From the IMG/VR virus record IMGVR_UViG_3300043436_002028, positions 1 through 64,000 of that record: a stretch of 64,000 nt of DNA; one strand, 5' to 3'. Source of the stretch: a virus. Numbering within the stretch: the stretch's first letter is position 1; each line of letters begins with the position of its first letter. This document shows, piece by piece, positions 367 to 63,423 of the stretch. The position numbers were made by a program, and so were the translations under genes. The notes under the pieces are model-generated. The model was not told the origin of the DNA and made no database searches. It saw nothing but the letters and a program-made list of their open reading frames with translations.

Positions 367-377
367 GCATTTAGAGA

Positions 378-394
378 ACCCGTTAAATTAACCC
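378..394 (+). promoter_or_regulatory. Repeat element copy 1, candidate phage RNA polymerase promoter
   Basis: ACCCGTTAAATTAACCC lies in the gap upstream of the terminase genes. The same sequence occurs at four other intergenic sites in this window on the same strand. Its core GTTAA-A-TTAAC is a perfect palindrome with one central base, flanked by CCC on both sides. Position, strand and conservation argue for a promoter used by a phage-encoded RNA polymerase; a dimeric protein operator is the alternative. Confidence 0.6.
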
Positions 395-12881: not shown

Positions 12882-14513
12882 ATGGCTGTCGTAAACGCTG
12901 CTCAAGCTACAGTAAAAACCGTAGCTGATCCAAATGCCTCATTTGAGTCTTTGAAGCCTTTGTGGAATAAATGCAGAGCCGTTTGTAGCGGGGAGCGTTA
13001 TGTTAAAGATTTTGATGGGACTATTGATACCCTTCGCTTTAGCAATTTACTGATTCCATTCTCTCCGTCTATGGATCAAAAGCAATACGACTTCTATAAA
13101 GCAGAAGCCGAATTGCCTGGTATCGTAGCACAATTCTCAAAGATGCTTGTTGGTGGTTTGTTAAGGAAACAGCCTGTTCTATCGTTACCTGATAATGTGC
13201 CTTCAGAGGCACAAAACTGGATAATGAATGAATTTGGCAAAGATGACTCACCTCTTGCGTCATTCTTAGATTCTGCACTCTGGGAAGAAGTCCAGACAAG
13301 TCGTGCTTGGATTTTTGTAGATTATCCTACTATCAAGAATCCAGAGACACTGACTAGACAAGATATCGCTAAATATAAGCCTTATCCTATTTTAGTTCAA
13401 GCTGAATCCGTAATTAACTGGCGCATTGCTACTGATGAGCTGGGCAGAAACATCTTAAATCGGGTTATTGTTCGTGGTTTCAAAGAAAAATATGAAACTA
13501 ATGAATTTCACCCCGACTTGATTGAAGTTGTTTATGTTCATGAATTAGACGAATCAGGCTATTATCAAATTCGTGTGTTTGAAAGAAAAGACATTGCAAC
13601 AGATGTTCCTGTGGTAGCTGGTCAAATTGTCAAACAGCCTGGTAAATATAAAGTAGCTTTTGAGCTTGCTGACACAATTACTAATATAATGGCTAATGAC
13701 AAGCGACTTAAAATGATTCCTGCTTGGCCATTAAATGGTAGTATTGATGCAATAGAGCCAATGTTGTCTCCCATTATTGACAAAGAAATTTCTTTGTATA
13801 ATAAAATGAGCAGACGCAATCATTTATTGTATGGCGCTTCTACATATACACCTTACATTGCGTCTGATATGTCAGATGATGACTTTGACGAAATTGTGTC
13901 TGGTGGTTTAGGTACATGGATTCGATTGCGACAAGGTGATACTGCAGGTGTTCTTGATACGCCTACGGCTGCTCTTCAAGATATGGATAGAGCAATTGGT
14001 GCTGCTATTGAAGAAATGGCAAAGATGGGTATTAGAATGCTTACACCTGAGACTGCACAATCCGGTGTTGCATTAGAAATCCGTAATGCTGCTCAAACTG
14101 CTCAGTTAGGAACGCTGAACAATAAAATCAGTAATATTATGAGGCAAGTTATTGCCTTTATGATTAACTGGCGTTATGATTTAGAATTGAAGCCTGCTGA
14201 TGTTGAATTCTCACTATCTGCTGACTTTAATCCTATCCCTCTTGGTGCTGACTGGCTCAGACTTGCAACAGAGTGGTATCAACAAGGGCTTATTCCTCGT
14301 TCTGTTTGGCTTGATATGCTTAAGCAGAATGATATGATATCGCCTGATTACAATGATGTTGAGGGTCAACAAGAGATAACAGCTGACAGTATGATTAATC
14401 TTGATCGTCAAGCTAATTTAGCGTATGCTGAACAAATAGCAGCTCAAAAGTTAAATTTAACAGACGATAAAGACGACGATAATGTTGAAGTAGGAGAACA
14501 AAATGGCCGGTAA
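12882..14513 (+). CDS. Portal protein (DUF4055-like)
   Basis: 543 residues, of portal length, followed by the MuF-type head gene. The N-terminal region (W.KCRAVCSGERYVKD ... Y..YKAEAELPGIVAQFSKMLVG) and the central EEVQTSRAWIFVDYP pattern match the DUF4055 portal group as I know it. The protein would form the dodecameric DNA channel at one capsid vertex and bind terminase. The long central helix and the clip region are plausible around residues 290-420. The gene overlaps the next one by 11 bases. Confidence 0.85.
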   Translation: MAVVNAAQATVKTVADPNASFESLKPLWNKCRAVCSGERYVKDFDGTIDTLRFSNLLIPFSPSMDQKQYDFYKAEAELPGIVAQFSKMLVGGLLRKQPVLSLPDNVPSEAQNWIMNEFGKDDSPLASFLDSALWEEVQTSRAWIFVDYPTIKNPETLTRQDIAKYKPYPILVQAESVINWRIATDELGRNILNRVIVRGFKEKYETNEFHPDLIEVVYVHELDESGYYQIRVFERKDIATDVPVVAGQIVKQPGKYKVAFELADTITNIMANDKRLKMIPAWPLNGSIDAIEPMLSPIIDKEISLYNKMSRRNHLLYGASTYTPYIASDMSDDDFDEIVSGGLGTWIRLRQGDTAGVLDTPTAALQDMDRAIGAAIEEMAKMGIRMLTPETAQSGVALEIRNAAQTAQLGTLNNKISNIMRQVIAFMINWRYDLELKPADVEFSLSADFNPIPLGADWLRLATEWYQQGLIPRSVWLDMLKQNDMISPDYNDVEGQQEITADSMINLDRQANLAYAEQIAAQKLNLTDDKDDDNVEVGEQNGR

Positions 14514-14790: not shown

Positions 14791-14949
14791 ATGCCACTAA
14801 CCAAAGGCTACTCTCAAAAGTCTGTATCTAAAAATATTTCAATGCTTATAAAAGAGGGAAAACCTCAAAAACAAGCTATTGCAATTGCTTTAGACACAGC
14901 TAAAGAAGCTAAGAAGAAAGCTTCTAAATCCAAACCAAATAAAGGTTGA
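14791..14949 (+). CDS. Short lysine-rich conserved protein (DUF6496-like)
   Basis: 52 residues: [19 protein letters not shown], then [20 protein letters not shown] and a lysine-rich tail. I recognise this KGxSxKxVSxNIxxLxxEGKPxxQAvAIAL pattern as a widespread small phage/plasmid family of unknown function. AAAGGCTAAG precedes the ATG. It ends 17 bases before the MuF fusion gene. Confidence 0.7.
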
Positions 14950-14966
14950 TACAGCAAGGAATAAGT

Positions 14967-17900
14967 ATGACTGTCAACGCTAATACACAAATATATGACA
15001 AAGCTATAGATAGGGCGGCAATGATCCGTCTTTATGAAAGAAGAGTCAATGGTAAGATTGAATTAGTTATTGACGGTCATACTGTCCGAGTCGATAAGCT
15101 TATCAAAGACGCTAATCTTTCTCAAAAAGGCTTTGAGAAGTTAAGAGAGGCTATTGATCAGGAACTTACAAAAACTTATAAAGAGACTTTTAATATTAGT
15201 AAAAGATCTTTATTAGATCTGGTTTCTGATCAATTGTCATATGCGTATCAAAACGTTGAAAATGCAATGGGTCAAATTTGGAGAACTCAAAGACCTCAAA
15301 GACGCATTGCTGAAGAAATTGTATTAGAAAAACCTCTACATGAAAATAGAACACTTGCTGCAGGTTGGGCGGGTGTTAGTGTTAGTGAAAAGAAAAGACT
15401 AGAAGCTTTAATTCGTAAAGGTATTTCTGAAGGTAAAACTGCTGATCAAATAGCGTTAGAAGTGCGGAAAGGTAATGTTCATAATATTACTCGTATGCAG
15501 TCAAAAGCTCTTGTTGTTACTGCAATTACTTCTGTAACTGCCCAAACCGATCACGCTGTTTACAAAGCTAACGAACGTGCCCTAGCGGGGTGGCAGTATG
15601 TGGCCGTCTTGGATGCCAGAACCACGCCTGTGTGTGCGCACCGAGACGGGACTACCTACCCCATTGGGGACACCTCGCACTTGCCTCCGGCCCACTTTAA
15701 TTGTCGTTCTACAACGATTCCCGTTTTTAAATCTTGGGATGATATTTCCAAGCTTGAAGGTGCTGCTGAAGTTAGACGTAGAAACCTTGAGGGTCTCACT
15801 GATAAACAAAAAGCCTTTTATGATGGTCAAACGCCAATGCGTGAGACTTATAATGACTGGCTCTTTAGACAACCGCAAGATGTTCAATTAAGGCATCTTG
15901 GTGATTATCAAAAAGTTCAGTTATTTAATAGCGGTCAGATTAGGCTTGAAAAGTTTACAAATCCAGAAGGTAATTCTATTGGTATTAAAGAGCTTAGAGC
16001 AATGACTGACGATGGTTACGAATTGCCTAATGATACTAAAAAGTTTGCTTCTGCAAAACAGAAACTAGATTCAATGCAATTAGGTGCATCTACACCTGAT
16101 GACTTTTTTGATAACCAAAAGTTAAAGAATACCTTAGTTGATTACTATCTTTTACAAGCAGGTGAGCTTGATGGTACTCTTTCAATAACAAACTACCGTG
16201 GTTTGTTAATTGGAACTAAGAGATCTGCAAAGAACAGGGTATTGACATCTCCTCCAAGAGAAGATCAACTTAAGTTTAATCCTATTACTGGACGCTATGA
16301 AGACATCCGACTATATCAACCAAATCCAGCTGTCTTATCTAATAACCTTAGATTGTTGGACGAAAGCAATGTCTTACTGGATAGAGACAAAGAATTTATT
16401 AGATCAGTCAATGACTCTTTGGCTGAAAAGATGAGTGTAAATGAAAGAGCTGTTGTTGTAGACAATCTACGAACACTCTTCACACGCCACAGAAAGAATC
16501 CTGAGCCTTGGGCTAACTTCAAAGCAGTTGTTCAAAGTCAAATAAAATTTGATGTAATGAACGTATCTGATGCAATTGAAACACAATTGCGCAGAGACAC
16601 TAACTTAATGAAAAAGTTGTTACAAGATAATTACATTGATCCTGTGTTAGGTCCAGTGCAGCTTGATGAATTACACGATTCTTTTATTGCTAACATTGGC
16701 AAGAAGAACAAGTGGGAAGACAAAGTTGCACCAAAGATAGCTAGAGAGCTTAGAGAAGTTTTTGATTTAAGCATTCCTTTAGTTATTAAAAATCGACTAA
16801 GTGATGCAGATCTACAACAGTTTTATCTTAAATTTGCTCATAGACTTAGCCTTGCTGACTTGCCAGATAGAGATCAGTTTGCTGTAGCATTAGGTAGAGA
16901 TCTTTACAACTTAGCCAATTTAAACGGAGCTAGAAATGCTTGGTATAAACTTGGCATGAAGCTTTTAGAAGCTAAGAACGTAAACAAATTCTTTGAAATT
17001 GAAACTTTTGGTGTTCAAAAGAGAAGAATGAAAAGTAGACTGAGTGGTACTTACTTTGGACCGTACTACGACACTATTGCTTACAATATTAGAGTAACAG
17101 ACCCTAGAGTTCAGGAGTATGCCCAACTAACACGAAAAGTTGAATTAGGTCTTCGTGTTGCAGTTACATCTGATAAGAATCGACTTGTATTTAGAGAGGG
17201 TTATAAAACCTACTTCATTGATCGTGGTGTTCTTGGCTTTGAAGATACAAGAATTCCAATTACATCAACATCAAGTTTTAGTGACTTTCCTGAAGAGTTT
17301 GTTGATAAGGAATTTATAGATGCTCTTAACTGGGCATCACAGGCTAAATATAAGATTGATTCCGACTATTATGACTTTATTAACAAATTATTATACTTTG
17401 AGGATGATAAAGGCAAAGCTCAATTTTACAATGGTTTGAATAATTATCGTAAGTATATTGCCTCAAGAGGCGATGCATACGAAAGATTCAAGGCAATGGA
17501 ATGGTTACGAAAGAGTGATAAAGCTTTTAGCAATCATCCGTTTGTTGATCACCGTGCTCGTATTTACGACCGAGGTTTGATTAGTCCACAAAGTGGTGAG
17601 ACATTTAGACCGTTCTTAAATACAGCTGAGCCAAAGAATTTTAGTCCTGAAGAATTTAAAGATTTACAAGATCAGATTGGTGCTTTTCTGGGAGGACTTA
17701 GTGATTATCTTGAAGGACGGTTTAACTCACTAACAATCACTGGTAGACAAAAGATTGCTGATAAATGGAGACCAGAACTGGTTAAGATTGGCAATCATAT
17801 GTTACGTGCTAAACCGAACGATATTAGAGCTGTACTAGAGTCAGATTTATTAGCTAATATTGATGGTGAAGAACAAGGTAAGTTTCTTAGATTCGCCATT

Positions 17901-19595
17901 GAATCTGCAAAGATTGATAATTTTCTTGGCGGTGATTACTCAACTGCATCTCTTCGAAAGCTAAATGATTATAAAATTTCTTTAGCCCTTGAACAAGATG
18001 CTTCGTCATCAGGTGCTCAGATTATTGCATTAACAACTCGAAACAAACAATTAGCTGAATTAAGCAACGTAATACCTACAACTCAGAAGAAACGTTTATA
18101 TGATGAGATTGCAGCAGCCACTTATAACGATCCAAGATTTAAGACTTTAAATGAAAAGTTTGGTCTTAATGAAAAGGATTTAAGAAAGGCGGCTAAAGCT
18201 CAAAACATGGTTACTTTCTATGGTGCTGGTGAAAGAACTGGCATTTTCAACGTAGAAGGTAAACTTGCTAAAGTTTTAGAGAAAGATGCTAATACACTTG
18301 TTGTAAAAGCTGCTGACAGAGATACAGTACTTAATGAAATTAGCGCTAGAATTGCTAGATACGAAAAGGTCGACCCTGAAACTGCAGAAGAACTTAGAGT
18401 GCTTAGAGAAAATGTTAAGGATGTCTTTAACAAAGGGATTGATCCAGGTGATGATATCTTAGATCAACTCTATTTCCTGGAGCCTAAGACTAAAGATCTT
18501 GTTGAAAAACTATCAAGGTCTTACGAGAAAATTGTTACACCAAATGATTTTAAGGTGATTGCTCAAATTATGAGTGAGTACCTTAGAGAGCAAGTTCCTA
18601 TTCTAAAAGAGTTTACTAGATTTTTCGGCAGATTGGCAGAAGACTTTTTAACTAATGCTAAACCTTCTAAGTCAGACTTTGACTGGCAAACTATTGCTAA
18701 AGTTACATTAAGAGGTTCAAAGCAAAAAGGCTACACGTTACCTAACTACGTAAGCGAATTATTAGGATTAAAGCCAGGGCAACCTGTTAGTGAAAAGATT
18801 CTAAGTCGTTTTGGTTTCTGGAAACCTAATGGTACTTTAAATGAAATTGTTTATGGTATACAAGATCCAAAAGCAAGAAGAACAGGTGCTAAGTATTTAA
18901 AAGTTGACTTACTACAGCTAAAAACTTTAAACGAACTAGAAGTGTTTTATGCTAATAAATTACCTAAAAGCTGGACAAATGTCCCTTGGGTTAATTTTGA
19001 TGGTAAAACAATTGAACAAAACTTTACACAAACATTCGAAGAAAGACTTAGATACCGAGATGAAAATGGTAACTGGTTTACTAACATTTTGCAAGTTCCT
19101 CAAAAGACCGAAGCAACTTGGTGGGAGCAAGTTATCAACAAGTCTGGTAAAATAAATGATATTGCAGATGCAACAAAGGCAAGAACTGCTTTTGCTGTTA
19201 ATGGCAACCATTCTAACGATGCTGTAATTGTTAAACGTTTTCATTTATGGGGCCGTGAAAACAATATCACAACATCAACTATTCATGATGCTTTCTTTGC
19301 AAATGCTGCAGACATGTTAAAAGCTAGAAATGCTTTAAGAGGCATTTATGCAAAAACATTAGATCGAAATGTCATTAAGTCTACATTAGACGAAATGAAA
19401 GCAAGAGGCCTTCCAAAAGAACTTTATGACAAGTACTTAGAGGAAGCAATTGAGCTAGGTCTAATACCCGTTCCTGGAAAGTCTAGAGTTGGTGGAAAAT
19501 TATTGAAAGAATCTGATATCCTCAAAAAGGAAGATATTCTGAAACAAATTCCAAGCAATTTTCAAGATGATTACGGGTGGTATGGTGTGGGTTAA
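14967..19595 (+). CDS. MuF head protein fused to a T7-family virion RNA polymerase
   Basis: 1542 residues from ATG 14967, preceded by AAGGA. Residues about 175-255 form the MuF/SPP1 gp7 head-morphogenesis segment (VLDARTTPVCAHRDGTTYPI, then PPAHFNCRST). The C-terminal part carries single-subunit RNA polymerase motifs: DHRAR (D861, R865); QDASSSGAQ with motif A D1011; RKAAKAQNMVTFYGAG with motif B R1073, K1077, Y1085 spaced 4 and 8 like T7 R627/K631/Y639; TIHDAF with motif C H1440-D1441. Residues 260-850 are helical and unassigned. MuF proteins are minor internal head proteins, so I infer a polymerase packaged in the capsid and ejected with DNA, as with phage N4 gp50. One G-to-A change in DxxGR is the only motif departure. 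Confidence 0.85.
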   Translation: MTVNANTQIYDKAIDRAAMIRLYERRVNGKIELVIDGHTVRVDKLIKDANLSQKGFEKLREAIDQELTKTYKETFNISKRSLLDLVSDQLSYAYQNVENAMGQIWRTQRPQRRIAEEIVLEKPLHENRTLAAGWAGVSVSEKKRLEALIRKGISEGKTADQIALEVRKGNVHNITRMQSKALVVTAITSVTAQTDHAVYKANERALAGWQYVAVLDARTTPVCAHRDGTTYPIGDTSHLPPAHFNCRSTTIPVFKSWDDISKLEGAAEVRRRNLEGLTDKQKAFYDGQTPMRETYNDWLFRQPQDVQLRHLGDYQKVQLFNSGQIRLEKFTNPEGNSIGIKELRAMTDDGYELPNDTKKFASAKQKLDSMQLGASTPDDFFDNQKLKNTLVDYYLLQAGELDGTLSITNYRGLLIGTKRSAKNRVLTSPPREDQLKFNPITGRYEDIRLYQPNPAVLSNNLRLLDESNVLLDRDKEFIRSVNDSLAEKMSVNERAVVVDNLRTLFTRHRKNPEPWANFKAVVQSQIKFDVMNVSDAIETQLRRDTNLMKKLLQDNYIDPVLGPVQLDELHDSFIANIGKKNKWEDKVAPKIARELREVFDLSIPLVIKNRLSDADLQQFYLKFAHRLSLADLPDRDQFAVALGRDLYNLANLNGARNAWYKLGMKLLEAKNVNKFFEIETFGVQKRRMKSRLSGTYFGPYYDTIAYNIRVTDPRVQEYAQLTRKVELGLRVAVTSDKNRLVFREGYKTYFIDRGVLGFEDTRIPITSTSSFSDFPEEFVDKEFIDALNWASQAKYKIDSDYYDFINKLLYFEDDKGKAQFYNGLNNYRKYIASRGDAYERFKAMEWLRKSDKAFSNHPFVDHRARIYDRGLISPQSGETFRPFLNTAEPKNFSPEEFKDLQDQIGAFLGGLSDYLEGRFNSLTITGRQKIADKWRPELVKIGNHMLRAKPNDIRAVLESDLLANIDGEEQGKFLRFAIESAKIDNFLGGDYSTASLRKLNDYKISLALEQDASSSGAQIIALTTRNKQLAELSNVIPTTQKKRLYDEIAAATYNDPRFKTLNEKFGLNEKDLRKAAKAQNMVTFYGAGERTGIFNVEGKLAKVLEKDANTLVVKAADRDTVLNEISARIARYEKVDPETAEELRVLRENVKDVFNKGIDPGDDILDQLYFLEPKTKDLVEKLSRSYEKIVTPNDFKVIAQIMSEYLREQVPILKEFTRFFGRLAEDFLTNAKPSKSDFDWQTIAKVTLRGSKQKGYTLPNYVSELLGLKPGQPVSEKILSRFGFWKPNGTLNEIVYGIQDPKARRTGAKYLKVDLLQLKTLNELEVFYANKLPKSWTNVPWVNFDGKTIEQNFTQTFEERLRYRDENGNWFTNILQVPQKTEATWWEQVINKSGKINDIADATKARTAFAVNGNHSNDAVIVKRFHLWGRENNITTSTIHDAFFANAADMLKARNALRGIYAKTLDRNVIKSTLDEMKARGLPKELYDKYLEEAIELGLIPVPGKSRVGGKLLKESDILKKEDILKQIPSNFQDDYGWYGVG
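15583..15705 (+). other. GC-rich patch over the MuF signature
   Basis: About 120 bases are clearly richer in G and C than the surrounding AT-rich gene, with codons such as ACC, ACG, GCG, CAC, GGG, CCC and CCG that are rare nearby. The patch coincides with the conserved MuF motif. It may mark recombination with a GC-richer relative or strong constraint. Confidence 0.6.
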
Positions 19596-19599
19596 GAGA

Positions 19600-19616
19600 C
19601 CCCGTTAAATTAACCC
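19600..19616 (+). promoter_or_regulatory. Repeat element copy 2, candidate promoter for scaffold/capsid genes
   Basis: CCCCGTTAAATTAACCC differs from the other copies only in its first base. It begins 4 bases after the stop of the MuF-polymerase gene and about 105 bases before the scaffold gene, the place where strong late transcription of capsid genes would be wanted. Confidence 0.6.
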
Positions 19617-19632: not shown

Positions 19633-19721
19633 ATATTAGGTAGGTAGTTTATATATTGAATCCATCATTAATAGAGATTGTATTTCTATTATTTAATGAG
19701 TTGTACTCAAAGGATATTAAA

Positions 19722-20402
19722 ATGGCTGATAACCAAGGTCAGAATACTGATCAAAACACTGACAACAACCAGAATAGCAATCAGAACAATGCTTCTGACA
19801 ACTCTCAAAACAAGTCAAACACACCTCCTGATGTTGACTCATTAGTACAAGCTAAGCTTGACGAAGCATTAAGAGACATCAAGTCAAAACTTGATAAGGC
19901 TTATAGTGCTCGTGATGAGGCTATGACTAAAGTTAAAGAGTTTGAAAAAGAGAAGCGTGACGCTGAATTAAAACGCTTGCAAGAAGAAGGCAAATTTAAA
20001 GAAGCCTACGAAATGCAAGTTAATGAACTTAGTGCAAAACTTACTTCTGCTGAAAAGCGCAATATTGAGTTAACACGAGATATTGATGTAAGAAACTCTT
20101 TGTCATCTCACCCTTTCAGAAATGAGAATGCCGTAGAAATGGCATATCGTGAAATCGTGGGGCAACTTGTTCAAAATGAACAAGGTGTTTGGGTTCATAA
20201 AACAGGAATGAGTATTAAAGACTTTGTTAAGTCTTTTGCTGACGCTGATGACAACTCTTTCTTGTTTAAACCGAAAACTAGTTCTGGTTCTGGAAGCAGT
20301 GGTACGAAGCCATCTGATACGTCTGGAGGCAAGAAATCTATATTTCAAATGTCTCAAGATGAAGTTTTGAAACTCGCCAAGGAAGGTAAACTCCGTGGCT
20401 AA
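19722..20402 (+). CDS. Capsid scaffolding protein
   Basis: 226 residues from ATG 19722, preceded by AAAGGAT; an upstream in-frame TTG at 19656 has no ribosome site. The N-terminus is a low-complexity Asn/Gln/Asp tract (residues 3-38), then a long charged coiled coil with KAYSARDEAMTKVKEFEKEK and RLQEEGKFKEAYE. The C-terminus is Ser/Gly-rich followed by KKSIFQMSQDEVLKLAKEGK. This is the usual pattern of scaffolds directly before major capsid genes. It should be lost from mature heads. Confidence 0.8.
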   Translation: MADNQGQNTDQNTDNNQNSNQNNASDNSQNKSNTPPDVDSLVQAKLDEALRDIKSKLDKAYSARDEAMTKVKEFEKEKRDAELKRLQEEGKFKEAYEMQVNELSAKLTSAEKRNIELTRDIDVRNSLSSHPFRNENAVEMAYREIVGQLVQNEQGVWVHKTGMSIKDFVKSFADADDNSFLFKPKTSSGSGSSGTKPSDTSGGKKSIFQMSQDEVLKLAKEGKLRG

Positions 20403-20424
20403 ATCAATTTAAGGAAATTTTAAA

Positions 20425-21609
20425 ATGACTGCTCGTACGAACGTTGCTGGTGCTGATAACTTTGTGTTACAGGAAGCAATTAGTGCTTATACCGATGAAG
20501 CTTACACCAATGAAAAGAAGCTTGTCGGTACTGGTATTGTTGGTGATAACCCCAATATCGATACTTCTACTGAGACCTTTATTGGTCAAATGCGTTGGTT
20601 CAAGCCTTTGAACCCTACTGTGAACGTTGCTTCGCTGACTGACGCTACTGATGGTACGAAAACTAACTATAGCTCAGACTACCTGAACTATGTTAAGACT
20701 GTTCGTACGCATGGTGCTGAGAAGGTCAACATGCAACAAGTGGTGACTCAGCAAGACGGTCTTGCTAAGATTGGTCGTGACTTTGCCGAAACTCGTGCTA
20801 AAGATGAACACAACGCTCTGTTGTCTATTCTGAAGGGTGTGGCTATCTCTGAAGCTCTTAACGGTGCTGCAGCTGGTTCTGGTCAGACTGGTCTTGGCGG
20901 TCAAACCTTCGACAACGATCCTGCTGACAAGCGTTATGGCTTCTACGTGGATCTTGGTTCTAGCAAGCCTGTTGTTGCAGCTACTTCCGCTGTTCAAGGT
21001 GCTGCTCGTGCTGAAGCCTTCTTGAATGCCTTTGGCATGGCTTATAAAGATTATGAGCCTGAGTACGCTTATCTGGTTACTTCGCCTGAGATCATGGCTT
21101 CTCTCCGTTCTGCTAACTTGGTCGACTCTGACCCTGTGCAAGACGGTAATGTCATGTTCAACACGATCTTCCAGGGTAAGTTCCGTCTGATTCAGACTCG
21201 TGCTGCTCAAAGCTTGTCTTCTGCTGAACTGACCAAAATCAACAGCGGTGGTGGTGTTAACATTGTTGGTACAAAGACTTCTTTCATTGTGCTGCCTGGT
21301 GCTGTCGCAATGAGACCTCTGTCTGTGCCCGATCAAGTTGAAATCTACCGTGATGGTAACAAGTACAAAGGTGGCGGTGCTACCTCTGTTTGGTATCGTT
21401 GGGGTTATGTCATGGCTCCCGCTGGTTACAACTGGGCTGGTTCTGCTGACAAGTTCCCGTCTGATGCCGAGTACATGTATGCTATTGAAAGTGGTACTCC
21501 GAAGGCTGTTACTTCGATTACTGATGGTGCTGCCAGCACTACTGGTTCTTGGGGTCGTAAGTTCAACTCTGCTCTGAGTCTTGGTATTCTGCCAGTCTTC
21601 CACGCTTAA
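20425..21609 (+). CDS. Major capsid protein
   Basis: 394 residues, directly after the scaffold and before connector genes, with a good ribosome site (TAAGGAA). The composition and length suit an HK97-fold capsid protein; the region around 21330-21440 (VPDQVEIYRDGNKY..GG.TSVWYRWGYVMAPAGYNW) looks like the C-terminal P-domain of such proteins. Codon use differs strongly from the neighbours: more CTG, CGT, GGT, AAC and TTC, as expected for the most abundant phage protein. That bias also creates a long false open frame on the other strand. Confidence 0.88.
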   Translation: MTARTNVAGADNFVLQEAISAYTDEAYTNEKKLVGTGIVGDNPNIDTSTETFIGQMRWFKPLNPTVNVASLTDATDGTKTNYSSDYLNYVKTVRTHGAEKVNMQQVVTQQDGLAKIGRDFAETRAKDEHNALLSILKGVAISEALNGAAAGSGQTGLGGQTFDNDPADKRYGFYVDLGSSKPVVAATSAVQGAARAEAFLNAFGMAYKDYEPEYAYLVTSPEIMASLRSANLVDSDPVQDGNVMFNTIFQGKFRLIQTRAAQSLSSAELTKINSGGGVNIVGTKTSFIVLPGAVAMRPLSVPDQVEIYRDGNKYKGGGATSVWYRWGYVMAPAGYNWAGSADKFPSDAEYMYAIESGTPKAVTSITDGAASTTGSWGRKFNSALSLGILPVFHA

Positions 21610-33803: not shown

Positions 33804-36800
33804 TTACAACAGTTATTGCTTGGGTTATTGCAAACCCTTGGACAGCTGCTTTTATTATTGCATCAACTAGCTATTCGATTATTCAAGCTAAAAAGATGCG
33901 AAAAGCAATGCGTGACTCAGCAGAAGCTAGAAAGGGTTACGAGGTCGTTACTACAGGCGATGTTCAACCAATTCCTATTGTATATGGTAGGGCTAAAATT
34001 GGCGGTACTCGTGTTTGGCATAATACAAAAGGATCTCATGAAGTTCCTCAAGGTTTTGTACCAAATGCAAATAAAGTATTTGATGTTGGAGCTAATCCTG
34101 TAGATGAAAGAACTATTACATATGAAGAGTATGATCCTGAGTATGGGTACTCAACTCTTACCAAGACAATACCTCCATCTTCGGCAGGAAATTTAGGAAT
34201 AACAATACCAGGCTCAAAGAATGAGTTTTTGTATTTTCAACAAGTTCTCTGTCACGGTCCAATAAACAAAGTTGTAGATTTTGTAGTTGATGAATCCAGG
34301 TTTAGCAATGATCCTGACTTAGGTAAAATTGAAGGAAGCCAGATTAGTTCTAACACAGTAAAAGCTGGTTTTAGAACTGAAGTTCATTATGATGGTAGCG
34401 TAGCAAACCTCTTGGTCTCCTACAATTTTGGAGAACGACAGACTGCTAAATTTCCTGGACTTGCATACGCATCTACAGCAATTCGTCTGAACAGAGACGA
34501 TCCACAGTTCCAAGGCCAAGTGCCTATGGTTCAATACTTTATTGAGGGCAGAAAAGTTAGAACTGTTTCTAACGGTGTTCTGAATAATACAAGAGTTTAT
34601 ACAAATAATCCTGCATGGTGTTTGTTAGATTATTTACTAGAAAATTCAGACAGACTTTATGAAGGTAAGAAGCTTTTTGAAGTCGGTAAAGGTTTAGCCT
34701 TAGATCAAATTGATTTATTGTCTTTCGAACAAGCGGCTGCCATATGTAATCAAACTGTAATATCTAGCGTACCTACTTATGGTAACGTTTGGAATTCAGT
34801 AGATAACTCTACAATTACAACAACACGATCTGTACCTCTTTATGAGTGCAATATGATTGTTGACGTTGAAAAGCCAATCAGAGAAAATATTGAAGCTATT
34901 CTTGCTTGTATGGGTGATGCTAGATTAGTATGGTCTGGAGGTAAATACAAACTATCCTTACAATACCCAAATTCTAATGCATCTGTTTCATTAGCAACTA
35001 CAATTACTGACGATGACCTTATTCAAGGCTCAAAGTTTGAACTTGTTTGGCCTACATCTAGTGAAAGACTGAACAACGCTACAGTTAGATTTCACAATGA
35101 AGCTGAGAACTTTAAAGAAGACTCTGTAAGTTGGCCTCCAAAACAATCTGCTCAGTACTTTAAAGGTATTGGTGGTAAAAGGTATGCTAATTCCGAAAAT
35201 ACTGACGGTGCTTTACTCTCATCTTATGGTGTTTGGCAGGGTGGCACATATAATCCGCCGCCTTTTAACTGGAAATTTATTGCTAAAGCAACTGGTGCAC
35301 ATGTTTTACAGTTCCAAGTTGACAATTACGGCTCAATCAGTATAACAAACAATAGTACAGGCGCTTCTGTATTTTCAAGCAGTTTCAGTGGAGCTAGTAC
35401 GGTTCATGTTAGAAATAATATCAACTTAGTTGAAAATCAAGTTTACTCGGTTGTAATTACTGCTGTAAATACAGGTGGCCCTGGTGGTGTTGCTGCAAGG
35501 CTTTCAAAAGATAATTTTATTTACTGGAGCACAAAAGATCCTGCATATGAAGCATTTACGCTTGTAAATGTAAGCGATGCAGTGTACCAGTCAATGCTTA
35601 CAGAAGACTCCGGATTAAAACTTGAAACAACAATGTTTTATGATGGGTGTACAGACTATTATCATGCGCTTGCAAAAGCTGAAGAGCTTGTAAGAACAAG
35701 TCGTAGTGCAATTTCTGTATCCTTTGAATATTTAGTAAAAGATAAGTTTCTAGAGCCTGGTGATTTTATCAAAATAGAATCGCCTAGTTTAAACTTAGGT
35801 GATGAAGACTTTTATGTTAGAGTTGCTGAAGTTAAACTTAGTGAAACAGGAACTTGTGAAGTTAAAGGTTCTAGATTTGATTATACTCAATTAGCTTGGA
35901 ATGTAAATGACAACGAGTATACAACTCCACCTAACATATTTGGTTTTAGAGTTCCAGCACCTAGACAAATTATCTATGTGCCTATTCAAAATATAGGTGA
36001 TTCGACCTCTATAGGTGAATTGCAGTGGACTCCAGTTGACTTTGATTCCTTCGCTGGTTATGTTGTATATTACAACACTTTTGATAATTATGACTCTAAT
36101 GGTCTACCTATCTTTATTGAATTGGGTAGAACTGTTGCAAGTAATTTTGTCTTACCTGCATTAAATATTGACTCAGCTGTTTTTGCAGTAAGGGCTGTTT
36201 CAAAGTCTAACAGATATTCTAAATACGTAACTACAGGTAATACCGCTGTAAGAATTCCAAAGATTTTTCCTAGAGCTGTTGAAGTTACAGCACCCTCGTT
36301 ATTCTTTATTCAGAGAGCAAACTCAATTAATTTTGTTTCAAATCAAATTACATTAACCACAACAATCAAAAACTATCTTGAACCGCAGTATCGTTGGTTT
36401 GTAGATAATACTTTAATTGTTGGTGCAACATCAGACTCATTAACAATAAACTCATTTGCAACAGGATTAAGTAAAAGATATCGAGTTGAGGTTTATGAGG
36501 CTTCTAACGAAGAAACACAAGCTGAAGACTTTGTTACTATTTACTCAATTCAAGAAGGCTCAAGTGGCTATACAGTGCTACTGTCCAACGAATCGAGACA
36601 AATTATAGCTAATTATGAAGGTCTTGTTGCTCCAAATCAATTTCCTTATCAAATTCAAGTAACTGTACTGAGAGGTACTGAAAACGTAACTGCTGGTGCA
36701 ACAATTAGTTTAGGCACACTGACAGGTATTTCAGCAACATTATCTTCAGATATTATTACTGTAAACGCACTAAATGCAATTACCGGAACAGGTCTTGTTA

Positions 36801-42018: not shown

Positions 42019-42063
42019 CTTACACTTAAAAATTTAAGAAATATTCAAAGTTTCATTCAACAA

Positions 42064-42080
42064 ACCCGTTAAATTAACCC
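42064..42080 (+). promoter_or_regulatory. Repeat element copy 3, candidate promoter for lysis genes
   Basis: ACCCGTTAAATTAACCC, about 57 bases upstream of the holin-like gene and downstream of the long terminator, so it could restart late transcription for lysis. This copy has no clear hairpin after it. Nothing else coding is seen between 41920 and 42136. Confidence 0.6.
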
Positions 42081-43188: not shown

Positions 43189-43194
43189 CCTTAA

Positions 43195-43221
43195 CCCCAC
43201 TGAAAAGTGGGGTTTTATTTT
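43195..43221 (+). terminator. Intrinsic terminator after lysozyme
   Basis: CCCCACT-GAAA-AGTGGGG, a 7-bp perfect stem with a stable GAAA tetraloop, followed by TTTTATTTT. It separates the lysis operon from the early-type promoter that overlaps its T tail. Confidence 0.93.
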
Positions 43222-43247
43222 GCGGAAAAATCAGTATCTTATATGAT
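43220..43247 (+). promoter_or_regulatory. Early-type promoter element A
   Basis: TTGCGG (43220-43225), 16 bases, TATGAT (43242-43247): a sigma70-like arrangement. The stretch GTATCTTATATGATA before and over the -10 box is repeated at 43898-43913 and 63410-63424, with a variant at 59484-59497. It lies upstream of the exported repeat protein. Confidence 0.65.
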
Positions 43248-43689: not shown

Positions 43690-43898
43690 AAGAGTTTATT
43701 AAAATGATTTTGATGCCATTTCAAAAGAAGAGCGCTGAATCTTTGCTTCAAGAAAGCATTGAAGAAGTAAAACGACAACTCATATCAACTCAAGCACAAG
43801 CTGTTTATGCTAGCAAAATGGTTGAGTACTATGAGCTTCGACTTGCCACGCTACGACTTCAAATCACAAACGGTATTGAGGGAGTTGCGGAAAAATAA
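43686..43898 (+). CDS. Small coiled-coil protein
   Basis: 70 residues with ATGA-type overlap to the preceding stop. Helical throughout, with ESLLQESIEEVKRQLISTQA. No family is recognised. Its last codons contain the -35-like TTGCGG of promoter element B. Confidence 0.55.
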   Translation: MKEFIKMILMPFQKKSAESLLQESIEEVKRQLISTQAQAVYASKMVEYYELRLATLRLQITNGIEGVAEK

Positions 43899-43912
43899 GT
43901 ATCTTATATGAT
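43885..43912 (+). promoter_or_regulatory. Early-type promoter element B
   Basis: TTGCGG (43885-43890), 16 bases, TATGAT (43907-43912). The string from TTGCGG to TATGATA is almost identical to element A (TTGCGGAAAAAT.AGTATCTTATATGATA). It lies partly inside the end of the preceding gene and serves the membrane protein at 43947. Confidence 0.68.
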
Positions 43913-45355: not shown

Positions 45356-45450
45356 TCGAAGCGCTTGTTGGTATTTATTTAATAACTCTTGTTCCAAAAA
45401 TTGTTGTAAGGATTGCAAAAGGTGAGACAAAAACTGATAGAACTAATTGA
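45352..45450 (+). CDS. 32-residue membrane peptide overlapping the RNA polymerase start
   Basis: ATG 45352 overlaps the preceding stop. The peptide has one hydrophobic helix (ALVGIYLITLVPKIVVRIA) and a polar tail. It ends 29 bases inside the polymerase gene, so it may act as a leader that couples translation of the polymerase. Its own role is uncertain. Confidence 0.4.
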   Translation: MIEALVGIYLITLVPKIVVRIAKGETKTDRTN

Positions 45451-47707
45451 CGCAAGAGTACAGTCTGAAATTGCACCTCAGAATCCATTAAAGTTTCTGA
45501 GTAAGCTTAAGGCTGAAAGCTATATAGATACCGTAATTTCTATAGTATACCTATATACTAGAAAGAAACGCGGATCTGTTACAAACACCATATATCTAAC
45601 TGAAGTCATTTCAGCCTTAGGCCATGGTGTTAGAAATAAATTTAAACTTAAAAGAGACTCTGCAATAGCTGCTAAAACAGGTGCTTTTCTTTTATTTAAC
45701 TTCGAAGTTTTAGAATTACTTCAAGTTGTTCTAGGTAAAGGTACTAACGGTCATCAAAGTTATATCATACAGGTTCTTAATGATGATGCTATTTGCAAGT
45801 TATGGGAAAGTCTTCCACCAAATCAAATTGAAAAACTTCCTTCAGAGAAACCATACGCACCTTGGATTACTGCTAAACACGAATCTGGTGTGTGGTTGGT
45901 TAAAACAAGAAATAAAGATGTCTTAGATAAGCTAACAATTGACACACACCCGATTGTATTTAGTTCTATTAATAAGTCTCAAGCAATTGGTTGGCGTATT
46001 AATAAAGAAATCTATGAAATACAACAGTGGGCTTTAAGAAATAAAACAGAAGCTTTTTCAGATATTTGGGAAGCTCAAAATGCTGAAGCTAAAGCTACCA
46101 AACTAAGAGAAGCAAAAGCAATTGCGAGTATTGCAAAGAGGTTTGTAGACAAGACATTCTATCATCTATATTATTACGATTTTAGAGGTAGGAAATATCC
46201 AACTACAGCTTACTTGCATGAACAAGGTTCTGACTCTGCTAGAGGTTTGCTTTTAAGAGAAGACTCTAAGCCAATAGGTAAAGATGGCTTCTTCTGGCTA
46301 ACAGTATCAATTGCTAATAACTGGGCAGGTGATGCTGGAAGAGAAGATAATGCAAAGACTGATAAGATTCCTTTAAAAGACCGACATTTCTGGGTTATTG
46401 ATAATGAGGACATTCTTATTTCTTATGCAGAAAAACCAAAAGTTAATCAAGGTTGGATGAAAGCTGATAAACCTTGGCAATTTCTTGCTGCTTGTCTTGA
46501 ACTGAAAAGATTCAGAGACTGGCAAATGTCTTTCTTCGATGACTATATTGACATTGGAATTATAGACAGTGCCTTAGAAAACTTAGGTGTAGATCCTTAT
46601 GATTTCAATTCAAGTCTGGAGTGTTATATTGACGGTAGTAATAATGGTTCTCAGCACTTGTCTGCTTTGACGCGTGATGAGATAACAGCGCCACATGTTA
46701 ACTTAATACCTTTAGATTTACCAGGAGATCTTTACAAATATGTTGCAGAACATGTGTGGTCTCGACTTGAAACTCATATAAAGTCAATGGACCCGACTAT
46801 CGTAAAAGCTTGTGAAACTTTCATAGATAATCTTATTGAAATTAAAAAACAAATTCAGTCAGCAGAACCTAAAAGTGATGCTAGAAAGACTTTGGTAGAT
46901 AACATTCTACAATTCAAGAACGATAACGCAGCTATTGCAGATATTTGTGCGCCTGTCTATTGGGCTAGAGTTGTAGATTTAAAGCACAGAAGAAAAGTTG
47001 TTAAGCGAAATGTAATGACACTGCCTTATGGTGGTACAGCTTATGGTCTAGGTCAACAACAAATTGATGATGCTCGAAAGCATGGAATTGATTTGTTACT
47101 ACATATGGAACATAAGTGGGGTGCTTATCTAGGCAGAGAAGTGTTTGAAGATTGTCGTATATCTTTGAAGAGGCCAATGCAATTGCTTTCAGTATTTGAA
47201 GAGGCTGGTAGAAAAGCCGAATTAAATGGAAAGTTTCTGTCATGGACTGTTCCCGTAACTAACTTTCCTGTAGTCCAAAGCTACACAGAAGGCATTGTTA
47301 AAAAGATATGGGTTCAGTATGGGCCTCCTGTAGGTGAAAGAAATAGCTCAGGCTATTTTGATAACACATTGCAGTTAGCTGTATGCTTTATTGAAGATGT
47401 TAAGCCATCAAAAGGTAAACAATCTCAAGGTGCTAGTCCTAATGCAATCCATAGTTTAGATGCAGCACATCTAGCTATTACTGCAGATAGGGCAGATTTT
47501 CCAATAACTACAATTCATGACAGTTTCGGTTGTTTGCTAGCAGATATGCCTAAATTGTTTAAATTAATTAGACAAACTTTCGTGGAGTTATACAATGCCG
47601 ACCCCTTAACATCTATTATGAAAGATATTGAAGGTGATATTAGTAACGTTCAATTTGGAAATCTAGACATCACATTAATTCTGGATTCTGAATATTGTTT
47701 TGCTTAG
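45422..47707 (+). CDS. T7-like single-subunit DNA-directed RNA polymerase
   Basis: 761 residues from GTG 45422, which has AAGG about 10 bases upstream; a TTG at 45413 is possible. All family motifs are present: DFRGR (D253-R257), motif A with D404 in DGSNNGSQH, motif B R524/K528/Y536 in KRNVMTLPYGG, and motif C HDSFG with H699-D700. The C-terminus YCFA resembles the FAFA foot of T7 polymerase. It is shorter than the 883-residue T7 enzyme, mainly in the N-terminal promoter-binding half. It should transcribe middle and late genes from its own promoters, for which the repeated ACCCGTTAAATTAACCC element is the best candidate. Confidence 0.95.
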   Translation: MRQKLIELIDARVQSEIAPQNPLKFLSKLKAESYIDTVISIVYLYTRKKRGSVTNTIYLTEVISALGHGVRNKFKLKRDSAIAAKTGAFLLFNFEVLELLQVVLGKGTNGHQSYIIQVLNDDAICKLWESLPPNQIEKLPSEKPYAPWITAKHESGVWLVKTRNKDVLDKLTIDTHPIVFSSINKSQAIGWRINKEIYEIQQWALRNKTEAFSDIWEAQNAEAKATKLREAKAIASIAKRFVDKTFYHLYYYDFRGRKYPTTAYLHEQGSDSARGLLLREDSKPIGKDGFFWLTVSIANNWAGDAGREDNAKTDKIPLKDRHFWVIDNEDILISYAEKPKVNQGWMKADKPWQFLAACLELKRFRDWQMSFFDDYIDIGIIDSALENLGVDPYDFNSSLECYIDGSNNGSQHLSALTRDEITAPHVNLIPLDLPGDLYKYVAEHVWSRLETHIKSMDPTIVKACETFIDNLIEIKKQIQSAEPKSDARKTLVDNILQFKNDNAAIADICAPVYWARVVDLKHRRKVVKRNVMTLPYGGTAYGLGQQQIDDARKHGIDLLLHMEHKWGAYLGREVFEDCRISLKRPMQLLSVFEEAGRKAELNGKFLSWTVPVTNFPVVQSYTEGIVKKIWVQYGPPVGERNSSGYFDNTLQLAVCFIEDVKPSKGKQSQGASPNAIHSLDAAHLAITADRADFPITTIHDSFGCLLADMPKLFKLIRQTFVELYNADPLTSIMKDIEGDISNVQFGNLDITLILDSEYCFA

Positions 47708-48436: not shown

Positions 48437-48790
48437 ATGAGTCAAGTAACTTATAACAACCCCGTAACAATGGAAAAAGGAATTAATACCATGAAAATGA
48501 TTATTCAAATTGATAGAAGCAGCAATTTGTGCTTTGATTTTGATCCTAACTTGGCTGATGTGTTGCTTGAAAGTCAGCTTGTTAGCCTTGACTTCGATTG
48601 GAATGGAGAACTCAAAAAAGTACAAGTTCAAGAATTTAAACCTAAAATTATTTTAATTAAAGAGTCTCAGATTGAGCCACAAAAAGTCGATACGAACAAG
48701 CAACTAAAAGAAATGGAACAACATAAGCAGAAAGCTCTTGCGGAAGCTGCAGCTATTGAAAAAGAAATGGAACAGTTGCGTAGCATCTGA
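48437..48790 (+). CDS. Hypothetical protein with a C-terminal coiled coil
   Basis: 117 residues from ATG 48437, preceded by AGAGGAAA. The N-terminal half is beta-like (MIIQIDRSSNLCFDFDPNLA); the last 40 residues form a charged helix (KEMEQHKQKALAEAAAIEKE). No family is recognised. Repeat element copy 4 starts at once after its stop. Confidence 0.55.
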   Translation: MSQVTYNNPVTMEKGINTMKMIIQIDRSSNLCFDFDPNLADVLLESQLVSLDFDWNGELKKVQVQEFKPKIILIKESQIEPQKVDTNKQLKEMEQHKQKALAEAAAIEKEMEQLRSI

Positions 48791-48807
48791 ACCCGTTAAA
48801 TTAACCC
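48791..48807 (+). promoter_or_regulatory. Repeat element copy 4, candidate promoter for the replication genes
   Basis: ACCCGTTAAATTAACCC immediately after the stop of the preceding gene and about 40 bases before the SSB gene. It would place SSB, DNA polymerase and the following genes under a phage polymerase. Confidence 0.62.
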
Positions 48808-49386: not shown

Positions 49387-49405
49387 ATTCTTGAAAAGGA
49401 CAAAC

Positions 49406-50014
49406 ATGCTGTACACATATACTTGCTACACACGAGATGATGTAGGAACACCTGTTAGAAAAGATATAACTACTAGGTTTGAAGAAATTAAAGAAGCCGA
49501 TGTCGTTGCACCAAATTATGTAGATATTTACAATAATCAGAAAATGCAACATGTCAGACTTCTTAGCAATCTTGATGACTTTGAAAATTGGCAAATTACT
49601 CTTGAGCGAGTAGCTACTTGGAAACCTGAAAAGCCTTCTCAAGACTTGCCTGACGCTAATTTGAAAACTCGTGTAGCTATTAATAAACCTACTCTATCTG
49701 CAATTCCACCCGTTGCTATTTATGCATTAGGTGCTGCTATGCAAGATGGTGTAAATAAATACGAGAAATATAATTGGCGTGATGCTGGCGCAACATCGTC
49801 TATTTTCTTTGATGCTATGTGCAGACATTTGTTTGCCTGGTATGCTGGAGAAGATCATGCAACTGATAGTAAGATACACCATCTCGGTCATTTAATGGCT
49901 GGTTGTGCTATTATCATGGATGCAGAGCTGCATGGTAAGTTAAACGACGATCGTAAGGCATCTGATATAGAAGAGCCTATTAAAGCTTTTATGGAATATA
50001 TTAAAGGAAAATAA
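49406..50014 (+). CDS. dATP/dGTP diphosphohydrolase-like protein (DUF5664-like)
   Basis: 202 residues from ATG 49406, preceded by AAAAGGAC. The C-terminal domain has AIYALGAAMQDGVNKYEKYN, WRDAG, DAMCRHLFAWYAGED and HHLGHLMAGCAIIMDAELHG, the helical pattern I associate with the phage dATP/dGTP diphosphohydrolase family. The N-terminal 90 residues are an unassigned extension. It may adjust deoxynucleotide pools or destroy a purine dNTP; some relatives occur in phages with modified adenine. No PurZ-like gene is in this window. It ends on the base before the DNA polymerase. Confidence 0.65.
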   Translation: MLYTYTCYTRDDVGTPVRKDITTRFEEIKEADVVAPNYVDIYNNQKMQHVRLLSNLDDFENWQITLERVATWKPEKPSQDLPDANLKTRVAINKPTLSAIPPVAIYALGAAMQDGVNKYEKYNWRDAGATSSIFFDAMCRHLFAWYAGEDHATDSKIHHLGHLMAGCAIIMDAELHGKLNDDRKASDIEEPIKAFMEYIKGK

Positions 50015-59469: not shown

Positions 59470-59497
59470 TTGAGAGTAATTTAGTATCTTATATGAA
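59470..59497 (+). promoter_or_regulatory. Early-type promoter element C (variant)
   Basis: TTGAGA (59470-59475), 16 bases, TATGAA (59492-59497), including the shared GTATCTTATATGA. The -10-like box runs into AAAGGAG, the ribosome site of the gene at 59509, so a sigma70 start would fall after that site. Either the site serves later genes, or the element works differently. Confidence 0.5.
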
Positions 59498-60767: not shown

Positions 60768-60953
60768 TTGACTGAGACAGTAGATGAAATGCAAGAGTAT
60801 ATAACATACTCTGGCGGAGATATAGCTGATTTTGTTATGAATCAACAACAGGAGGTAATTGAACTATTTGAAACAGGTTCAGCCGAGTTTTATATAAATG
60901 AAAAATGCTATATTATTAAAATCAATATAGTTGAAGTTAAACCAAACCTTTAG
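60768..60953 (+). CDS. Small acidic protein with TTG start
   Basis: 61 residues. The start codon is TTG, with a strong AAGGAG six bases upstream and no better ATG. Acidic and helical, ending in a beta-like CYIIKINIVEVKP. It ends 10 bases before the next gene. No family is recognised. Confidence 0.5.
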   Translation: MTETVDEMQEYITYSGGDIADFVMNQQQEVIELFETGSAEFYINEKCYIIKINIVEVKPNL

Positions 60954-60963
60954 GATTAAAGAA

Positions 60964-61935
60964 ATGTCAGGAATGAAAAGGAATACAATCAAACTAGTTT
61001 TGAAAGAAAAACTTGAAAGCTGGCTTGAAACCGTGGATGATCAAAATGTCTCTAGTTTAATTAAGAGAGATGTTATTGTTAGTGGGGGTGCAATTGCCTC
61101 TATGCTAGCAGGAGAAAAGATTAATGATTATGATCTTTACTTTAGAACCAGAGAGACTACAGAAGCTGTTGCAAAATACTATGTAAATAAGTTTAATGAA
61201 TCTAATGGGCAACTTTCTACAAAAGCAATGAGGTCTTGTAACCCAGAAGTCAAGACAGAAATTAGAAAGAATGTCAAGGGTAATGAAGAACACCGTGTAA
61301 TTATTTACATGAAATCTTCAGGAGTTGCCTCTGAAAATCAATCTGAATATCGTTACTTCGAAGGCGAGGGTGAAGTATCTGCTGATGAATTTATGGATTC
61401 TCTTAAAACAGATCCAATGGAAACTGCAACAGATTTAGTTGAAATCGTAAAGGATAAGAAAACTAAATTTAGGCCTGTGTTCTTTTCAGAGAATGCGATC
61501 ACACTTTCAGATAAAGTACAACTAGTAATTCGCTTTTACGGTTCTCCAGAAGAAATTCACGAGAATTATGACTATGCACATTCAATGTGCTACTACGACT
61601 ATCAAGCAGATTCCCTAGTATTGCATCCAGAAGCTCTAGAGTGTGTTTTATCAAAAACTCTTATCTATAAAGGAAGTTTGTACCCAATTGCATCTATCTT
61701 TAGAATCAGGAAATTTATTGAAAGAGGTTGGCGAATTACTGCAGGTCAGCTCTTAAAAATTATCTGGCAGATTAATGAAATAGATTTAAAAGACCCTGCT
61801 GTACTGAAAGAACAGCTTACTGGTGTAGATCAAGCTTATATGCATCAATTGCTGAGAGCTTTAGAAACTAAAGAAGCGAATCAAAAGATTGATAGCACTT
61901 ATCTTGCAAAATTAATTGACGAAATTTTTGAATAA
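60964..61935 (+). CDS. Nucleotidyltransferase-fold phage protein
   Basis: 323 residues from ATG 60964. VSGGAIASMLAGEKINDYDLYF has the GG...(L/M)..G...NDYD(L/I) form of the polymerase-beta/CCA-adding nucleotidyltransferase active site, with DxD as metal ligands. A conserved C-terminal region (YDYAHSMCYYDY, ALECVLSKTLIYKG, IFRIRKFIERGW) is shared by a widespread phage family. The substrate is unknown; RNA 3' ends or a protein are possible. It lies just before a DHH phosphoesterase gene. Confidence 0.65.
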   Translation: MSGMKRNTIKLVLKEKLESWLETVDDQNVSSLIKRDVIVSGGAIASMLAGEKINDYDLYFRTRETTEAVAKYYVNKFNESNGQLSTKAMRSCNPEVKTEIRKNVKGNEEHRVIIYMKSSGVASENQSEYRYFEGEGEVSADEFMDSLKTDPMETATDLVEIVKDKKTKFRPVFFSENAITLSDKVQLVIRFYGSPEEIHENYDYAHSMCYYDYQADSLVLHPEALECVLSKTLIYKGSLYPIASIFRIRKFIERGWRITAGQLLKIIWQINEIDLKDPAVLKEQLTGVDQAYMHQLLRALETKEANQKIDSTYLAKLIDEIFE

Positions 61936-63317: not shown

Positions 63318-63339
63318 TAGATGAACGATCCCTAGACAA

Positions 63340-63356
63340 CCCGTTAAATTAACCCT
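63340..63356 (+). promoter_or_regulatory. Repeat element copy 5, candidate phage promoter
   Basis: ACCCGTTAAATTAACCC in the gap before the last gene, about 108 bases upstream of its ATG. Early-type element D lies 40 bases downstream, so the gene seems to have both kinds of promoter. Confidence 0.62.
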
Positions 63357-63395: not shown

Positions 63396-63423
63396 TTGCG
63401 TTAAAAATGGTATCTTATATGAT
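63396..63423 (+). promoter_or_regulatory. Early-type promoter element D
   Basis: TTGCGT (63396-63401), 16 bases, TATGAT (63418-63423), with the shared GTATCTTATATGATA. The ATG of the next gene is 41 bases after the -10-like box, a normal distance for a leader with the AAGGAA ribosome site. Confidence 0.68.

Follow-up and report, generated by a model that had tools for sequence, protein, structure and literature searches.

Virion RNA polymerases are known from N4-like podoviruses, from phiKZ-like and dU jumbo phages, and from P23-45. In the N4 virion RNA polymerase (gp50 of the Schitoviridae), a T7-type single-subunit RNA polymerase (ssRNAP) lies inside a larger late-gene protein that is presumed to be in the virion, and further phage polymerases act after infection (PMC12633501). 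P23-45 is a siphovirus with two promoter classes, in which a virion polymerase fused to the tape measure protein makes a non-virion polymerase, both enzymes being two-barrel polymerases (PMC10770324). MuF domains are taken to bring enzymes into the host as parts of polyvalent proteins. Their cargos include RNases (PBECR), 2H phosphoesterases, RelA/SpoT, phosphoribosyltransferase and a zeta-toxin-like kinase, and virion polymerase modules were restricted to N4-like phages in the same paper (PMC5512222).

The window analysed here is a stretch of 64,000 nucleotides from a 68,546-base IMG/VR virus contig (IMGVR_UViG_3300043436_002028), and one of its genes encodes a MuF head protein continued by a T7-type polymerase. 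The protein resembles N4 gp50 in that a T7-type ssRNAP is part of a larger late-gene product, presumably carried in the virion, and a further phage polymerase would act after infection. However, the carrier is a MuF head protein of a siphovirus and not a 3500-aa ejection protein, the polymerase part is C-terminal and not central and falls into a separate lineage, and the promoter-like motif assigned to it, M2, is not a conserved hairpin promoter. The window virus shares with P23-45 the siphovirus type, a putative virion polymerase fused to a structural protein, a presumed non-virion polymerase and two classes of promoter-like motifs, whereas both of its polymerases are T7-type and the carrier is MuF. 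Hundreds of environmental phages appear to have arrived at the same solution with other components, namely a MuF head protein that carries a T7-type enzyme. As in other MuF-effector fusions, the MuF domain would bring an enzyme into the host.

The Naomviridae (DSS3_VP1 and DSS3_PM1) possess the same fusion (~30% identical at 95% coverage), a free polymerase and a clade-specific M2, but the fusion is annotated there only as 'minor head protein-like', and dU-DNA enzymes are not consistent among fusion-bearing phages. A link of the fusion to dU-DNA was considered, since DSS3_VP1 has dU, and was set aside: neither marker enzyme is encoded by the window phage or by most relatives. No MuF-polymerase fusion was found in the literature searched, which agrees with an earlier note, made from the sequence alone, that was aware of none in a siphovirus. 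Because this search did not extend to most subscription papers, among them the one in which the Naomviridae phages were first described, prior notice is possible. The architecture appears to be undescribed; the intergenic and strand-specific motifs M1 and M2 also appear to be new.

A MuF domain and a single-subunit RNA polymerase in one reading frame

The open reading frame at 14967-19595 (+ strand) encodes 1542 aa (176.5 kDa) and is open from ATG 14967 or TTG 14946 to 19595; residues are counted from ATG 14967. The MuF domain proper (Phage_Mu_F, PF04233, E=1.3e-12) covers residues 145-251 (15399..15719, +), and the head morphogenesis family phrog_241 spans residues 2-389 (E=6e-60). In the same protein, RNA_pol (PF00940) was matched in two stretches with E=1e-11 and 44.8 bits against a curated cut-off of 22, and the best stretch of the PHROGs RNA polymerase match was 843-1097 (E=5e-21). 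The presence of both domains in one frame is far beyond chance. This part of the earlier note, a MuF protein and a T7-family polymerase in one frame, was confirmed by Pfam, PHROGs and fold.

The gene order is portal-MuF-scaffold-capsid. The portal gene (12882..14513, +; phrog_145, E=3.5e-56) adjoins the 5′ side of the fusion gene, which is followed at 19656-21609 by the genes for the head scaffolding protein (19656..20402, +; phrog_206, E=5e-12) and the major head protein (20425..21609, +; phrog_247, E=4e-22). This slot is the usual location of MuF genes. Because tape measure and tail proteins are encoded, the window virus is a long-tailed phage. By its PF04233 domain and its position between portal and scaffold/capsid, both of which are shown, the fusion protein qualifies as a MuF (SPP1 gp7-like) head protein, while its presence in the virion at the portal is inferred. 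The model of the N-terminal part was poor (pLDDT 67) and not usable for structure search; that the protein docks on the portal is therefore inferred from what is known of the MuF family.

An AlphaFold2 model of residues 430-1542 (16254..19592, +) was built from a 51-sequence alignment and reached a mean pLDDT of 82.8 and a pTM of 0.80. When this model was compared with the PDB by Foldseek, all of the top 50 matches were T7 or mitochondrial RNA polymerases (best E=3.2e-17; T7 RNA polymerase, E=3e-17). The TM-scores of ~0.4-0.5 show a common fold with large insertions and not close similarity. In a viral structure library the best match was a 1463-aa protein, the same length as the DSS3_VP1 protein, followed by T7-like polymerases and then by N4-type virion polymerases. 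The C-terminal part is thus predicted to have the single-subunit polymerase fold, and the fold comparison named in the earlier note as a check was passed; active-site distances between the motif residues were not measured. Sequence searches gave weak results: with phmmer against the PDB, the sole match of the window protein was N4 RNAP2 (E=1.1), profile-to-single-sequence hhalign was weak both for N4 and for the free RNAP, and no profile similarity was detected between the fusion polymerase and N4 mini-vRNAP. It was the fold comparison that settled the identity of the polymerase. A beta-rich stretch of the model between motifs B and C (residues ~1308-1378) occupies the place of the T7 specificity loop; that the two are equivalent is our own reading of the model.

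The catalytic motifs, all of which were found at the residues given in the earlier note, are DHRAR (residues 861-865; 17547..17561, +), which corresponds to the T7 DxxGR motif; motif A, QDASSSGAQ (residues 1010-1018; 17994..18020, +), with D1011 equal to T7 D537; motif B, RKAAKAQNMVTFYGAG (18183..18230, +), with R1073, K1077 and Y1085; and motif C, NHSNDA...TIHDAFF (19206..19298, +), with NHSNDA at 1414-1419 and H1440 and D1441 equal to T7 H811 and D812. The motif columns align with T7 and SP6. D861, R863, R865, D1011, K1077, Y1085, H1440 and D1441 are invariant in 65/65 full-length window-type proteins, and K1077 and Y1085 are unchanged in the DSS3 clade as well. R1073 (T7 R627) is R in 62 of the 65 window-type proteins, whereas the marine DSS3 clade has A or Q at this position, so its place in the conserved set held only in part. 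The DxxGR equivalent held for the window as DHRAR, where the DSS3 clade has canonical DSRGR. The statement that N4 has the same set was too strong: the N4 virion polymerase aligned with a degenerate first motif, TRVGR, and did not align at the HD motif.

Purifying selection on the fusion is strong, with omega ~0.03-0.09 where computable. The dN of the polymerase part is 0.10-0.15 at a dS >=2 or saturated, the MuF part gives similar values, and the fusion is conserved across 30-87% identity. With PF00940 above its cut-off, the T7-like right-hand fold, and the catalytic Asp (motifs A and C), Lys and Tyr (motif B) kept, the polymerase part qualifies as an ssRNAP; fold and residues are shown, and RNA synthesis is inferred.

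Spread of the fusion and interruptions of its gene

Among annotated phages, tblastn detected full-length relatives only in EBPR siphovirus 1 (62%) and the roseophages DSS3_VP1/PM1 (~30%), where they are annotated as 'head protein' or 'minor head protein-like' with the polymerase part unannotated. The DSS3_VP1 protein has the accession QGH74596.1. Two overlapping pattern scans of IMG/VR gave at least 579 and at least 562 confirmed fusion loci. The fusion is thus widespread, with hundreds of IMG/VR loci in addition to cultured phages. No prophage with the fusion was found among 84,980 species genomes; the sole matches were two contigs of one metagenome bin, so no host was inferred.

In the Pelagibacter phages Kolga and Aegir, the related MuF protein (633 aa) lacks a polymerase domain, and there is one related free polymerase. 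Therefore, fusion or loss occurred within this wider phage group. Aegir, which was deposited as a complete genome of 18.3 kb, is very similar to one stretch of the 48.7-kb Kolga genome and has its genes from RNA polymerase to capsid in the same order. The Aegir record may be incomplete.

Breaks in the polymerase part occur in EBPR siphovirus 1 and in several relatives from IMG/VR, either after residue 1082 (motif B), after residue 1413 (motif C), or close to residues 997 and 1076. In an Rfam scan, which did not cover EBPR siphovirus 1, group I introns were recognized in four contigs at the sites after 1082 and 1413. Mobile introns in catalytic motifs are typical of essential enzyme genes. These sites bear on the view that the polymerase part is catalytically dead and the product purely a head or ejection protein. 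Nothing speaks positively for this view, although a first step towards it would be the absence of R1073 from the DSS3 clade. It is opposed by the invariance of D1011, K1077, Y1085, H1440 and D1441 in 65/65 proteins and by the intron sites within catalytic motifs, which are typical mobile-intron targets. We regard a dead polymerase as extremely unlikely.

Several interruptions were also seen in individual relatives. Group I introns occur in six of them, with no more than two catalytic-motif sites occupied in any one gene, and some of these introns contain endonuclease ORFs. In EBPR siphovirus 1, gp47 and gp49 look like halves of one gene, and the insertion that splits them carries an HNH gene (gp48). 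Four other relatives have an in-frame insertion of 230 aa after residue 1107, between motifs B and C, which has no Pfam match and contains a MazG-like EELGEF stretch seen by eye. Two more have an in-frame insertion of ~143 aa (FHVSTRPL...) after ~residue 990, just before motif A, without a significant Pfam match.

The free polymerase and two promoter-like motifs

A second T7-like RNA polymerase of 764 aa, which we presume to be a non-virion enzyme, is encoded at 45413..47707 (+; PF00940, E=2.5e-63; phrog_414, E=3e-111). Fusion and free polymerase were found together in 12/12 long freshwater contigs, in DSS3_VP1 and in 7 of 10 marine contigs, the remaining three being fragments of 26-35 kb. In the phylogenetic tree, the fusion polymerases formed one clade (100/100), the free enzymes grouped with T7/SP6-type polymerases (97/97), and the N4-type virion polymerases formed a third clade (100/100); branches are long and the deep order is uncertain. 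Two origins of the fusion polymerase were rejected on this tree: a recent duplication of the free enzyme, because the free enzymes group with the T7/SP6-type while the fusion forms a deep clade of its own, and a transfer from N4-like phages. The comparison with N4 in the earlier note therefore does not extend to descent.

The free enzyme also bears on the idea that the fused polymerase works in the producing cell, late or coupled to replication, without carry-over, and that the MuF fusion is a by-product of gene adjacency. In favor of this idea, the gene sits in a late operon between portal and scaffold. However, the MuF and polymerase parts stay fused in both clades with comparable constraint on each, a free polymerase for the late genes is already there, and other MuF fusions are regarded as delivered effectors (PMC5512222). 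A producing-cell enzyme is thus very unlikely, and carriage in the virion remains the preferred reading.

Two motifs, M1 and M2, were found from intergenic repeats. M1 (AMCCCGTTANNTTAACCC) has 41 sites in nine genomes, 38 of them intergenic, with none on the opposite strand and 0 expected; beyond the search pattern, position 0 is A in 41/41. It heads late and replication operons, and in 9/9 genomes one site lies 4 to ~400 bp behind the fusion gene, before scaffold and capsid. In the window, a motif scan placed M1 elements, all on the + strand, upstream of the terminase region (377..394), 4 bp behind the stop codon of the fusion gene and before the scaffold and capsid genes (19599..19616), before the endolysin region (42063..42080), before replication genes (48790..48807), and ~60 bp upstream of an M2 element (63338..63355). 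In EBPR siphovirus 1, the corresponding position behind the fusion gene is taken by a variant of M1, ACCGTTATTTTAACCC. The DSS3_VP1 counterpart is TAATAGG..ACGTTAAAGAGGGGG, which resembles a T7 promoter by eye. A hairpin promoter was considered for M1 and not retained, the arms being only partly conserved.

The window type of M2 (GCGGAAAA-n-GGTATCTTATATGA) has 26 sites in nine genomes, 22 of them intergenic, with none on the opposite strand and 0.4 expected; positions 7, 13 and 14 are kept beyond the search pattern. All nine genomes have at least one site at a distance of 1-4 kb upstream of the gene for the free RNAP. The window contains four elements on the + strand by motif scan: one at 43222..43246, 2.2 kb upstream of the free RNAP gene and just behind a terminator-like hairpin (43193-43214), a second copy upstream of the same gene (43887..43911), and two further ones (59472..59496 and 63398..63422). 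The marine form, GTGAGAAAAn5GCATCTATAATGA, has 15 sites in six genomes against 0 expected, all of them intergenic and upstream of the free RNAP gene; in DSS3_VP1 it reads ATCTATAATGA, near record positions 35,800 and 36,250. With one form per clade, M2 was present upstream of the free-polymerase gene in 15/15 genomes examined (9/9 and 6/6). In both clades M2 is followed by a 5′ stem-loop (z -2.6 and -2.8 vs controls at -0.5 and -1.1). A hairpin promoter was rejected for M2, as the TATC/GATA arms are broken in many copies and no stable conserved hairpin lies inside the motif. Kolga and Aegir have neither M1 nor M2; they are too distant and too AT-rich for a sharp control.

Exact M2 was then searched in 2.9 million viral contigs without reference to the protein, giving 65 and 70 stretches. 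The fusion was carried by 22 of 24 long unseen contigs, and the other two were incomplete contigs with a free polymerase. Such co-occurrence would also be expected from common descent alone.

It could be argued that the fusion is packaged and ejected but that M2 serves the RNA polymerase of the host (or one of its sigma factors), and that the virion enzyme first does another job such as transcription-driven DNA uptake or primer making. Consistent with this, the marine M2 contains TATAAT and the window M2 can be read as TTGCGG-16-TATGAT. However, a sigma-70 scan does not select the M2 sites, and the number of matches equals the shuffled mean. Moreover, roughly half of the window-type sites do not fit TATGAT (its last base and the -35 are not conserved), the ATCT-WWWW-TGA register kept between the clades differs from the sigma-70 register, and M2 is a rigid, nearly invariant 25 bp, in contrast to host promoters with free spacers. 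Reading of M2 by the host is thus unlikely, while recognition by host RNAP remains possible for the marine form with its TATAAT, which counts against the model below. M2 is assigned to the virion enzyme by position and elimination, and to an early promoter class of its own, ahead of the gene for the non-virion polymerase, by position only; both assignments are inferred from sequence alone.

A putative virion-borne start of early transcription

With M2 assigned to the virion enzyme, the reading that we consider likely is that a virion-borne, portal-docked polymerase starts the early genes at M2 and so yields the free polymerase, which reads M1. During assembly, the MuF N-terminal part would place the fusion protein with the portal, inside the head, and the T7-type C-terminal polymerase would leave the head together with the DNA. 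In the new host, it may initiate at M2 at the start of the early region and transcribe the operon with the free T7-like polymerase. The free polymerase would then read M1 and transcribe the replication, head, tail and lysis genes, including the next MuF-polymerase. The one-frame domains, the fold, the invariant catalytic residues, the purifying selection, the portal-scaffold position, the co-occurrence of the polymerases and the motif classes with their positions are shown. Packaging, ejection, catalysis and the pairing of enzymes with motifs are inferred, without proteomics or in vitro data. The earlier note had proposed a virion-packaged, injected polymerase from its motifs; that proposal is now supported, beyond the motifs, by the second polymerase gene and by two promoter-like motifs that fit an early/late cascade, with packaging, injection and activity still inferred. 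Two further points count against the model: R1073 (T7 R627) is lost in the DSS3 clade, and a 176-kDa protein would have to cross the siphovirus tail tube, presumably unfolded.

A bolder reading, which also appears likely to us, is that this is a further independent host-free start of transcription, with a MuF-delivered ssRNAP of its own deep lineage and a new class of 25-bp promoter, in widespread siphoviruses that include cultured roseophages, where it had been overlooked. If so, rifampicin-resistant early transcription is predicted in siphoviruses, and the fusion polymerases would be a new single-subunit lineage with a testable promoter and a clean example of a large enzyme obliged to cross a siphovirus tail. 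The cultured pair of DSS3_VP1 and Ruegeria pomeroyi DSS-3 puts the model within experimental reach now.

Some minor observations were made on the free polymerase gene and on other genes of the window. The free T7-like polymerase gene is split or enlarged in seven relatives, which suggests introns or inteins there too. A conserved 334-aa protein of unassigned function is encoded at 60931-61935 (phrog_4400, E=4e-68; no Pfam match). The protein encoded at 49391-50014 has an N-terminal dATP/dGTP diphosphohydrolase domain (PF18909) and also matches phrog_2252, 'endolysin; inhibits RNA polymerase'.
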